Of a stretch of DNA of 44,173 nt, positions 19,172 to 24,248 are shown in pieces. Source of the stretch: Planctomycetota bacterium. Its GTDB lineage: Bacteria; Planctomycetota; Planctomycetia; Pirellulales; UBA1268. The notes under the pieces were generated by a model. The model searched no databases and had not been told where the DNA came from. It saw only the letters and a program-made list of their open reading frames with translations. Location: the NCBI GenBank assembly GCA_027592945.1, contig JAQCJP010000003.1:1-44173 (forward strand), given 5' to 3'. The position numbers were made by a program, and so were the translations under genes. Position 1 is the stretch's first letter, and each line of letters opens with the position of its first letter.

Positions 19172-20854
19172 TCACCTCACAAACCGCATCCTGGCGAAGT
19201 TTGGCAGGCAGGGCAATCGCAGTTCCCAGCCGCAGCGTTGGGCGACCCGCACATTCCAGGCGGTGGGCACGGCGTGGGGCCAGAAGACCATCAACGCCCG
19301 GCCCACCAGGAGCCGCCGGTCGACGTGATGCAGGGGCTCCTCGGGGGTGCCCCAGGCCCGGCTGTCCTTGCTGGCCGAGGAGTTGTCGCCCAGCATGAAG
19401 AACTGGTCCTCTTCAAGCGGGTAGGAGACAACCGGTTCCTCGGCTTCACGGCCCACCAGCGCTCGCTGGCTGCCGCTGCTGACGTAGTAGAGATCACGGA
19501 GTACCCGCAGGTCCGCGACGGTGACGTCAGCCCCCTCGGCCGTCACGCCGGCGGGAGCCAGGTCGTCGGGGTCGGTGTCGCCCGGCCGGCCCGAACCGAC
19601 AACCGGCCGTGAACTGCTTGCCAATCGGATCTCCCGCCGCCACGTGGTCGGCGTGGCGGTCGTGATTCGGCGGCCATCGACGAACAGGGAGAGTTCATCG
19701 TCGACGTTGGCAAACAGAATCTCCCAGCGGCCCCGCCCTTTGATGCCGCAGTCGGCCGTCGCAGCGGCGGCCCCGCCCGTCAGCGTGGCGATGCCCGTGG
19801 CCAGATCAAACCGACAGGTGTGCCGCTGCCCCGCCTCCACCAGATCGAACTCGACAAAGCCGGCCTCGCTGCGGCTCTCCAGTTCGCATTCCACCGCCAG
19901 ATCACCCACCCAGTGGGCTCCGTCGACCATCGCGCCCAGCTCGTCATCGTCATGGAGCGAGAGATACTCCGGCGCCTGGTTGTAGGGCTGATAGTCACCC
20001 ACCAGAATCGGCACGGCCTCGGGCAGCGGGCTGTCGGGTCCGTCCCAGCCGTCAGGCACGAAATGCCGCCAGCGGAGCATGGCCGGGTCGGTGTTGGCCG
20101 CCACCGAGAAGGATCGGCCGGAGTCGGCGGTCGTCCAGCGGGGCTGTTCGCCCTCCGCCGACCAGTCCCGCCAGGCCAGCGGCCAGCCGGCATCGACCAA
20201 CGCCTCGGCGACGTGCCGGCTGTCGTGAACGCACTGCAGCATGGCCCGCAGTTTGGCCGGCGGCTTGCGGGCGATGCCAGGCGCTTCGTCTCCACGGCTC
20301 GTCCAAATGTCACCTCCGGCGATCGAGACCGTCTCTTCGGGCAGTCCGATCAGCCGCTTGATGTAGTTGACCCGGGCATCCTCCGGATATTTGAAGACGA
20401 CCACATCCCACCGGCTCGGCTCGACAAAGTCGTAGGCAAACTTCTCGACGATGATCCGATCACCCGTGAAAGGTGGGTAGGCGTGACGGTAGCGGCCGGT
20501 GGCATCGGTTAGCCGGGCGATGCTCCCGCAGTTGGGGCAGCGGGCCTGGTTGACAAAGAAGTTGGGATTGAGCTGGCAGGAGGCCTCGTTCAGCTCCTTG
20601 CTGGAGCCGACCCGGAAGGCCGCCTCGCAGGATTCACAGACGACGTCGCGGTGCCGGCCCATCAGGGTCGGGGCCATCGAGCCGGTCGGGATCACGAAGG
20701 CCTCGGCCTCGAATGATCGAAACAGCAGGGCCAGCACGAACGCCACCACGATTGATTCGATCGTTTCCCGCCCACCGCTGAGCGGGTTTTGCACGATGTC
20801 GCCCTTTCCGGGCGGAGCAGCGGGGTGCTGAGGCGGCATGCTGGTCTCGTTCAC
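19172..20854 (-). CDS. lepB: Signal peptidase I with extra inserted domains
   Basis: FVIPTGSMAPTLMG (Ser), DVVVFKYPEDARVNYIKRLIGLPEETVSI (Lys) and FFMLGDNSSASKDSRAWG. Large inserts are present between the motifs. Confidence 0.92.
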   Translation of the reverse strand: MNETSMPPQHPAAPPGKGDIVQNPLSGGRETIESIVVAFVLALLFRSFEAEAFVIPTGSMAPTLMGRHRDVVCESCEAAFRVGSSKELNEASCQLNPNFFVNQARCPNCGSIARLTDATGRYRHAYPPFTGDRIIVEKFAYDFVEPSRWDVVVFKYPEDARVNYIKRLIGLPEETVSIAGGDIWTSRGDEAPGIARKPPAKLRAMLQCVHDSRHVAEALVDAGWPLAWRDWSAEGEQPRWTTADSGRSFSVAANTDPAMLRWRHFVPDGWDGPDSPLPEAVPILVGDYQPYNQAPEYLSLHDDDELGAMVDGAHWVGDLAVECELESRSEAGFVEFDLVEAGQRHTCRFDLATGIATLTGGAAAATADCGIKGRGRWEILFANVDDELSLFVDGRRITTATPTTWRREIRLASSSRPVVGSGRPGDTDPDDLAPAGVTAEGADVTVADLRVLRDLYYVSSGSQRALVGREAEEPVVSYPLEEDQFFMLGDNSSASKDSRAWGTPEEPLHHVDRRLLVGRALMVFWPHAVPTAWNVRVAQRCGWELRLPCLPNFARMRFVR

Positions 20855-21644: not shown

Positions 21645-22259
21645 TCATTCGGCCAGCAGACGGTCCACCGTCGCTGCGACGTCGTCGTAGGTGAAGGGGC
21701 GGTCGAGTTCTCGGGCGGCGAAGTCGTCGTCGTAGCGGATCGCCAGGGTGCCGTCGGGCTTCCAGATGAAGATGGCCGGCACGCTCACGATCTCGAGCTT
21801 CTCGGAGAGGCTGTCGGCGTCCTCCGTGGCCAGCATGTTCACCACATCACCTGCCCCAACCCGCTCGAGAAAGCCCTTGACCGGGCCGACGAGATCATCC
21901 ACCGCTCCAATCCCGTCGTAGTCGAAGCAGAGCGACAGGCATTGCACCCGATCCGGGTGGGCGGCCGCCAGTTCAACAAGCCCCGGAAACTCTTTGACGC
22001 AGGGAGGGCAGGAGGTGCTCCAGCAGTCGAGTACCACCACCTTGCCGCGGTGGCGGGCCACCTCCTCCATCAGCCCGTTGTGGTCAACCAGGTGAAGGGC
22101 AATCGTCACCGAGGGGTCGGCTGCTGGGCGGTCGGCCGCGGCCGGCGGGGCATCGGCTGGACGGGGCGAGCCGCAACCTGTGAGGATCACGACCGTCGCC
22201 ACGAGTGCCGTGGCCTGTCTCCAGCGGTCTGAGCCTGCGATGCCGTCGTTCGAGCACAT
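21645..22259 (-). CDS. TlpA-like thioredoxin-fold lipoprotein
   Basis: LTGCGSP lipobox; GKVVVLDCWSTSCPPCVKEFPGLVELAA (CPPC) and VSVPAIFIWKPDGTLAIRY. Confidence 0.88.
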   Translation of the reverse strand: MCSNDGIAGSDRWRQATALVATVVILTGCGSPRPADAPPAAADRPAADPSVTIALHLVDHNGLMEEVARHRGKVVVLDCWSTSCPPCVKEFPGLVELAAAHPDRVQCLSLCFDYDGIGAVDDLVGPVKGFLERVGAGDVVNMLATEDADSLSEKLEIVSVPAIFIWKPDGTLAIRYDDDFAARELDRPFTYDDVAATVDRLLAE

Positions 22260-22758
22260 TCGTCACAAGCCTCCGGAGGTCCTGCCTGCCGGCCGCGAGC
22301 TGGTCGTGGCCTGCCCGCCGATGAGGAGCCAGGTCAATCTATCCCACATCGTACGAACCTGTGGTTGTTTCGGCATTCGGCGGGTCATCTTCTGCGGCGC
22401 GGCCAGGATCCGGGAGCGGATCGCCCGGAACGGCAGTGAGGCGGTGGCGATCGAGATCCATCGCAGCCTGCCGCCGGTGCTCGACCGGCTGCGGAGCGAG
22501 GGCTACGAGCTGGTCGGGCTCGAGCAGGCGACCGGGTCGGAATCGTTGCCCGCCTTCCGCTTCGCCGCCCGTACGGCGCTGATCGTCGGCAACGAGCGGA
22601 CGGGCCTCCTCCCTGAGGAACTTGCCAGGCTCGACAGGGTGGCGGAGATTCCGATGGCCGGCATGCCCCACAGTCTCAACGCGGCGACCGCCACAGCAGT
22701 GGCCGTTTACGAATACTGCCGACAGTGGCCGGGTGGCGGCAGCGAGGACACGCAGTGA
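22240..22758 (+). CDS. TrmH/SpoU-family RNA methyltransferase (SPOUT)
   Basis: NLSHIVRTCGCFGIRRVIFCG, ALIVGNERTGLLPEEL, IPMAGMPHSLNAATATAVAVYEY. Confidence 0.9.
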   Translation: MPSFEHIRHKPPEVLPAGRELVVACPPMRSQVNLSHIVRTCGCFGIRRVIFCGAARIRERIARNGSEAVAIEIHRSLPPVLDRLRSEGYELVGLEQATGSESLPAFRFAARTALIVGNERTGLLPEELARLDRVAEIPMAGMPHSLNAATATAVAVYEYCRQWPGGGSEDTQ

Positions 22759-23705
22759 CCCTTGTAATCGGCACCGACGAGGCGGGCTACGGCCCCAACC
22801 TGGGGCCGCTGGTGGTCGCTGCGACGGCCTGGCGGCTCGAGGCCGGGCCGGCGGCCGTGGAACACCGCTTGGCCCGGGCGTTGGAGGAGGCCGGGCGGCT
22901 CGCACCGGGCGGCCGACTGTGGGGTGATTCCAAAGCGATCTACCGCGGCGGCAGGGGCCTCGAAGGGCTCGAGCGAGGTGTGCTTGTCGCGCTCGCTGTG
23001 GCCGGTCAGGGCCAGCCTGCCATCTGGCGGGATCTGATCGCAGGACTGACGGCCGACGGGCCGGAGCCGACAGCAGCACCGCCGGAACAGCGCTGCCTCG
23101 ATGACCTCTCGTTGCCGTGGCATCAGGCGGCAGGAGCCTGTCTGAAACTGGCCGCAGCCGTCGATTCCCGGCTGGCGGCCGCGGGCGTCAGCCTCGAGGC
23201 GGTCCGGTGCCGGCTGGTGCAGCCGGCCGAGTTCAATCGGCTGCTCGACGAGGGGCTCAACAAGAGCGACATCCTCTCGCGGATCACCCTCGAACTCGCG
23301 GCCCGGCTGGATGGCCGTGCCCACAACGAACCGGTGGTGATCTGGTGCGACCGTCACGGGGGTCGCCGCCGGTACGCGGCCCAGGTAACGCGGGCCTTCG
23401 ACACGCCGCTTGTGCAGCCGCTTGAAGAAACCCCCCGTTGCAGCCGTTATGCCTGCGGGCCGCGCCGCACGATCGAGTTCTCCGTGGCCGGTGAGTCACG
23501 GCTTCCCATTGCGGTGGCCAGCATGACTGCCAAATACCTCCGCGAACTGTCGATGCAGGCCTTCAACAGCCACTGGGGAAGCAGGCAGACCGGCTTGAAA
23601 CCGACGGCGGGCTATCCCGTCGATGCGGTCCGCTGGCGGAAGGAGGGGGCTGCCGCCGTCGAGTCGGCTGGCACGTCCTGGGATGCCGTCTGGCGACGGG
23701 CTTGA
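22755..23705 (+). CDS. RNase HII-like (RNase H fold) protein, divergent
   Basis: VIGTDEAGYGPNLGPLVVAATAW resembles RNase HII/HIII motif I, LWGDSKAIY resembles the DSK motif, VVIWCDRHGGRRRY, and VASMTAKYLRELSMQAFN resembles the S-x-x-AK-x-x-RD-x-x-M region. GTG start at 22755 overlaps the TrmH stop. Confidence 0.72.
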   Translation: MTLVIGTDEAGYGPNLGPLVVAATAWRLEAGPAAVEHRLARALEEAGRLAPGGRLWGDSKAIYRGGRGLEGLERGVLVALAVAGQGQPAIWRDLIAGLTADGPEPTAAPPEQRCLDDLSLPWHQAAGACLKLAAAVDSRLAAAGVSLEAVRCRLVQPAEFNRLLDEGLNKSDILSRITLELAARLDGRAHNEPVVIWCDRHGGRRRYAAQVTRAFDTPLVQPLEETPRCSRYACGPRRTIEFSVAGESRLPIAVASMTAKYLRELSMQAFNSHWGSRQTGLKPTAGYPVDAVRWRKEGAAAVESAGTSWDAVWRRA

Positions 23706-23747: not shown

Positions 23748-24248
23748 ATGGCCATCCTCACCACCCGGCTCTACGTCGTCAGACACGCACCTGCCGAAGA
23801 TGCCGGGCCGGGCATCAGTGATTGTGATCGGCAGTTGACCGAGAAGGGCCGGCGGCGGTTTGCCCGAATGGTGCAGCGGCTGGTGGAACGTGGTCTGGAA
23901 ATTGACCTGGTGGCGACGAGCCCGCTTGTTCGTTGCCGCCAGACGGCGGACCTGCTGGCCGACTCGCTCCCGGGCCAGCCCCGGGTTGCCGTGGTCGATC
24001 GGCTCGCGCCCGGGGCTGACTGGGAGGCGGTGGTGGCCTGGACGGTGCAGCAGGATGCTCCGCGGGTCGCCTGGGTCGGCCATGCCCCTTGTGTGGGAAG
24101 GCTGGTGGCCATGTCGATCGGCGACGGGTCGGCGGCGGTTCGGATGCAGAAGGGCGCCGTCGCCGCGATCGCCCTGGACGACGGGCCCGGCCAGCCCGGC
24201 GAACTGCTTTGGCTTGTCTCTCCCGATTTGCTCGGCCGGCGGCACTGA
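23748..24248 (+). CDS. sixA: Phosphohistidine phosphatase SixA-like (histidine phosphatase superfamily)
   Basis: RLYVVRHAPAED (RHG-type motif), LTEKGRRRFARM, LVATSPLVRCRQTADLLAD, VAWVGHAP. Confidence 0.88.
   Translation: MAILTTRLYVVRHAPAEDAGPGISDCDRQLTEKGRRRFARMVQRLVERGLEIDLVATSPLVRCRQTADLLADSLPGQPRVAVVDRLAPGADWEAVVAWTVQQDAPRVAWVGHAPCVGRLVAMSIGDGSAAVRMQKGAVAAIALDDGPGQPGELLWLVSPDLLGRRH

Follow-up and report, generated by a model that had tools for sequence, protein, structure and literature searches.

The gene examined here occupies 22755..23705 on the plus strand of a 44,173-nucleotide stretch of DNA (the window) and encodes a type-2 RNase H of 316 residues, the window's member of what we refer to as the GYGP family. 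The open reading frame is real and intact. It starts at a GTG codon that shares four bases (GTGA, in the context ...acgcaGTGAcc...) with the stop of an upstream TrmH-like gene, whose TGA lies at 22756-22758. Another in-frame GTG, at 22725, would lengthen the protein by 10 residues, but the starts of homologues correspond to 22755 or to a position near it. The upstream gene, at 22240..22758 (+), encodes a SpoU/TrmH-family methyltransferase (PF00588, E = 1.2e-25). About 40 bases 3' of the GYGP gene is the start of a SixA phosphohistidine phosphatase gene at 23748..24248 (+), which scores over the cut-off of TIGR00249 (E = 9.6e-25). An earlier reading of the window from its letters (the sequence-only reading) had described an RNase HII-like protein of about 316 residues with a DEAGYGP signature at this place, a GTG start overlapping the TrmH stop, and TrmH and SixA genes as neighbours, and all of these points were borne out.

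The same reading proposed that the TrmH, RNase H and SixA genes form a functional unit. When the flanks of the gene in 29 relatives, 1.5 kb per side where the contig allowed, were searched by tblastn, neither the TrmH nor the SixA gene of the window was found to adjoin the GYGP gene in any of them (0/29). The proposed TrmH/RNase H/SixA operon was rejected on this result; the linkage is local to the window, and both neighbours are placed outside the system. Other genes beside the GYGP gene recur only among close relatives. A mobile origin of the gene was also rejected, as plasmid and phage collections yielded no tblastn match. By eye, an MnmE-like gene (tRNA modification GTPase), another RNA-modification neighbour, was seen upstream in five relatives (L005, L009, L019, L020 and L026). 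Elsewhere in the window, a signal peptidase I-like open reading frame of 560 residues at 19172-20854 (-) has a large insert between its catalytic regions and is far longer than usual signal peptidases.

The GYGP protein matched the Pfam RNase_HII model (PF01351) with E = 4e-9 and 37.1 bits, over the cut-off of 25.8, and all 30 of the aligned relatives matched the same model (E <= 0.1). Given these matches, the resemblance to RNase HII is not due to chance. The NCBIfam equivalog models for RNase HII gave only 12-25 bits (maximum 25.5) against cut-offs of 123-273, and those for RNase HIII likewise scored far under their cut-offs, indicating a superfamily member that is no ordinary RNase HII. An AlphaFold model, for which the input was a 30-sequence alignment, had a pLDDT of 91.9 and a pTM of 0.92. 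With Foldseek, 28 PDB matches were obtained at E <= 1e-3, all of them RNase HII, H2A or HIII (best E 4.8e-9; TM up to 0.71 by target length), and the best 33 PDB structure matches of the model belonged to these enzymes without exception. A profile search of PDB sequences found RNase H3 (4py5, 3.4e-8), archaeal HII and human H2A. By Pfam score and model, then, the protein is a member of the type-2 RNase H superfamily with a predicted RNase H2 fold, as the sequence-only reading had anticipated.

Residues 4-23 of the GYGP protein, VIGTDEAGYGPNLGPLVVAA, include the DEAGYGP motif (residues 8-14; 22776..22796, +), which both hmmscan and hmmsearch aligned with RNase HII. The motif supplies the putative catalytic residues D8 and E9, and its G11-Y12-G13 replaces the GRG bulge with which RNase HII senses the 2'-OH. 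In 49 relatives, D8, E9, G11 and G13 do not vary. Residue 12 is Tyr in 44, Leu in 4 and Phe in 1, and is never Arg or Lys; GYG, GLG or GFG thus stands where RNase HII has GRG in 49/49. The DSK at residues 58-60 (22926..22934, +), kept in all 49, is that of RNase HII, with K60 the equivalent of K47 of the T. maritima enzyme. The predicted third catalytic carboxylate, D199, aligned with the third Asp of HII and HIII, opens the segment D199-R-H-G-G-R-R-R-Y207 (23349..23375, +), which carries the signature D[KR][HQL]GGRxxY. D199 is found in 48 of the 49 relatives, the other having Gly, and R204 and Y207 in every one. The fourth carboxylate is assigned by alignment to E247 (23493..23495, +), a position that is Glu or Asp in 49/49 and Asp in 22 of them. 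As matched by alignment, the predicted active site (D8, E9, D199, E/D247 and DSK58-60) is complete.

Two further motifs lie toward the C-terminus. The first, S256...K260..R263-E264 (S-x-x-x-K-x-x-R-E, residues 256-264; 23520..23546, +), is by joint alignment the counterpart of AASIlAKvtRD in RNase HII, which includes K138 and R141 of the T. maritima enzyme, residues whose roles come from a solved structure (PMC3025331). K260 and R263, aligned on AK-x-x-R, are invariant in the 49 relatives, and DSK and the later K-x-x-R motif occur in the order reported earlier. The second is T284-A-G-Y287-P-V-D290 (T-x-G-Y-P-x-D; 23604..23624, +), a putative junction-sensing motif. It falls on the GYPSD motif of HII, Y287 being equated with Y163 of T. 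maritima RNase HII both by hhalign with HII and by the joint alignment, and T284, G286, Y287 and D290 are identical in 49/49 relatives. This motif, which the sequence-only reading had passed over, is the best evidence for a probable function of the RNase HII type. The joint alignment and the model also place a helical insert at about residues 61-125 (22935..23129, +), so that some 60 extra residues separate DSK from the next RNase HII helix. Its modelled helices span 70-82, 91-98 and 110-117, and the insert is missing from HII and HIII. An extra beta hairpin is modelled at residues 220-243 (23412..23483, +), before the fourth carboxylate, with strands at 220-225, 229-234 and 238-243; HII and HIII are gapped there in the joint alignment.

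The sequence-only reading took the Arg of GRG to be the junction reader and its change to Tyr as pointing to a new substrate. Previous work on the T. maritima RNase H2 complex does not favour this view. There, the main-chain amides of residues G21, R22 and G23 contact the 2'-OH, as does the Y163 hydroxyl (PMC3025331). The side chain of R22 sits in the minor groove, and most activities are unaffected in R22A, which loses a little on single ribonucleotides (PMC3025331). With the ribose recognised by main-chain amides and the Tyr, and R22A nearly neutral, Arg to Tyr alone predicts no new substrate; nor, with both glycines and the C-terminal Tyr invariant in the family, is the Arg change by itself a sign of one. 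The family, in which Tyr, Leu or Phe replaces the Arg while the two glycines and the C-terminal Tyr stay, offers a natural experiment on what the GRG/Tyr junction sensor requires. The string DEAGYGP was not found in the literature searched.

In an unrooted tree of 57 sequences, the GYGP family, RNase HII and RNase HIII formed clades with supports of 100/99, 97/86 and 99/98, respectively, each being one side of a branch. The HII clade does not include the GYGP family, which is set apart by a long branch. Of the suggestion that this is a separate RNase H-fold family with altered substrate choice, the separateness holds, with its own clade and complete acidic site, and the step from the Tyr to a new substrate is not supported. 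Compared with RNase HII/H2A (PF01351; M. jannaschii 1eke, T. kodakaraensis 1io2, T. maritima 3o3f), the GYGP protein shares the fold, the DE..D..D/E site, DSK, AK-x-x-R, the Tyr of GYPxD and the genomic slot, but differs in having G-[YLF]-G for GRG, a fourth carboxylate that is often Glu, the D[KR][HQL]GGRxxY signature, the insert after DSK, the hairpin, a length of 316 residues and a clade of its own. The family was not filed as RNase HII because it has no GRG motif, scores under the equivalog cut-offs and lies outside the HII clade. We regard it as a separate, phylum-wide type-2 RNase H lineage, most likely doing the job of RNase HII.

Of 296 genomes from the phylum (apparently Planctomycetota), 270 carry the GYGP family, as do 153 of the 156 good ones (>=90% complete, <=5% contaminated), which makes it a core gene there. 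Nearly all full-length PF01351 matches in the phylum were judged to be HII or HIII by sequence reading. Taking most of them as canonical HII was rejected on that reading, which gave RNase HIII in about 80 of the 296 genomes and canonical RNase HII in only 9. None of these 9 shares HII with the GYGP gene (Fisher 7e-11), a p value that ignores relatedness and an exclusivity that concerns 9 genomes of few lineages, some of them incomplete. All 9 also lacked the family by a more sensitive profile, whose only matches there were to the N-terminal 30 residues encoded by the HII genes. In a LepA tree, built without G147, the HII carriers are scattered, and well-supported branches force at least two separate placements, so the HII pattern is not one clade's accident. 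Many of the genomes are incomplete, and neither the GYGP gene nor HII was found in 17/296 genomes, whose completeness, where shown, is 59-90%. Single-contig genomes of the same class (e.g., G294, G241 and G182) have the GYGP gene and no other RNase HII. The window's own genome has RNase HI and the GYGP gene only. The sequence-only reading had raised the possibility of a sole and ordinary rnhB: the gene is indeed the sole type-2 RNase H of its genome, where no ordinary rnhB was found, but its sequence is not ordinary.

RNase HI and HIII are largely mutually exclusive in the 296 genomes (6e-27), an avoidance reported in 2007 (PMC1950709). The GYGP family occurs independently of each (p 0.83 and 0.49). 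Because it co-occurs freely with HI and HIII and never with HII, the family sits in the HII slot, and its pattern is that expected of an RNase HII substitute. RNase HII is, to our knowledge, close to universal. In an earlier survey, the one planctomycete included fell in none of the HII-containing groups and was scored as having HI only (PMC1950709). A phylum-wide gene that has all the predicted catalytic and junction-reading parts and is absent where canonical RNase HII occurs would explain that gap.

We consider it probable that the GYGP protein is an active two-metal-ion type-2 RNase H endonuclease and the phylum's working replacement for RNase HII. The metals would be held by D8, E9, D199 and E247, and the scissile phosphate by K60 of DSK, as K47 binds it in T. 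maritima RNase HII (PMC3025331). Main-chain amides of the G11-x-G13 bulge would sense the 2'-OH of the ribose, and the RNA-DNA junction would be distorted by Y287. In ribonucleotide excision repair, the enzyme would then introduce a nick 5' to each single misincorporated ribonucleotide; it would also clear primer remnants, long hybrids being left to RNase HI or HIII. In the literature searched, no paper linked planctomycetes with ribonucleotide excision repair. Since the DSK loop of RNase HII enters the major groove (PMC3025331), the helical insert beside it is probably near the substrate, where it probably strengthens the hold on the substrate or offers a site for a partner.

A more radical reading, which we hold only tentatively and think rather unlikely, is that the family is a third type-2 RNase H class beside HII and HIII, with substrate-recognition chemistry of its own and altered specificity, that replaced HII throughout the phylum; an aromatic or aliphatic residue would then lie in the minor groove and the insert at the major groove. 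Distinctly less likely is an activity like that of RNase HIII, cutting RNA stretches in hybrids (primers, R-loops) and ignoring single ribonucleotides. The GYGP protein shares with RNase HIII (TIGR00716; 4py5, 2d0a) the fold, a DEDE-type site in which the fourth carboxylate is often Glu, and the spacing from that carboxylate to K/R; an FN...NK motif near 160-170 aligns with the YN...NLN of HIII, and the best PDB profile match is RNase H3 4py5. However, the protein has neither the N-terminal substrate-binding domain of HIII (its core starts at residue 2) nor the GKGD motif, and it has the invariant GYPxD Tyr, a junction reader missing in HIII (PMC3025331). It moreover coexists with HIII in 76 genomes, shows the co-occurrence with HI and HIII that HII shows, and excludes HII. 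Slightly less probable still is that the protein acts as a nuclease on some other substrate, for instance structured RNA or tRNA. Although the Tyr, Leu or Phe at residue 12, the insert of about 60 residues and the TrmH-family neighbour in the window could be taken that way, the ribose is not read by the Arg side chain (PMC3025331), neither the junction Tyr nor DSK varies, no TrmH gene was found next to the gene in relatives and, without the GYGP gene, the HII slot would be empty. That the protein has lost catalysis and persists as a relic or a binding protein, as the Gly at 199 in one relative might hint, is very improbable given that all four acidic positions are kept phylum-wide in sequences 31-38% identical to that of the window protein.

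Some minor observations concern the other PF01351 proteins of the phylum. Its rare canonical HII genes (L033-L038, L039, L074 and L105) mostly have the archaeal/eukaryotic C-terminal GSGYPSDPKT and are not of the E. coli type; one of them, L039 (genome G027), has GKG in place of GRG. A fourth small group in the 57-sequence tree formed its own clade. It is a further divergent PF01351 paralogue, with DETGTGEL/I for DEAGRGP and IDDYG at the third Asp, represented by L121 (G087) and L122 (G047), with weak matches in G068, G105 and G136. All belong to family f45, and the paralogue was found together with the GYGP gene.
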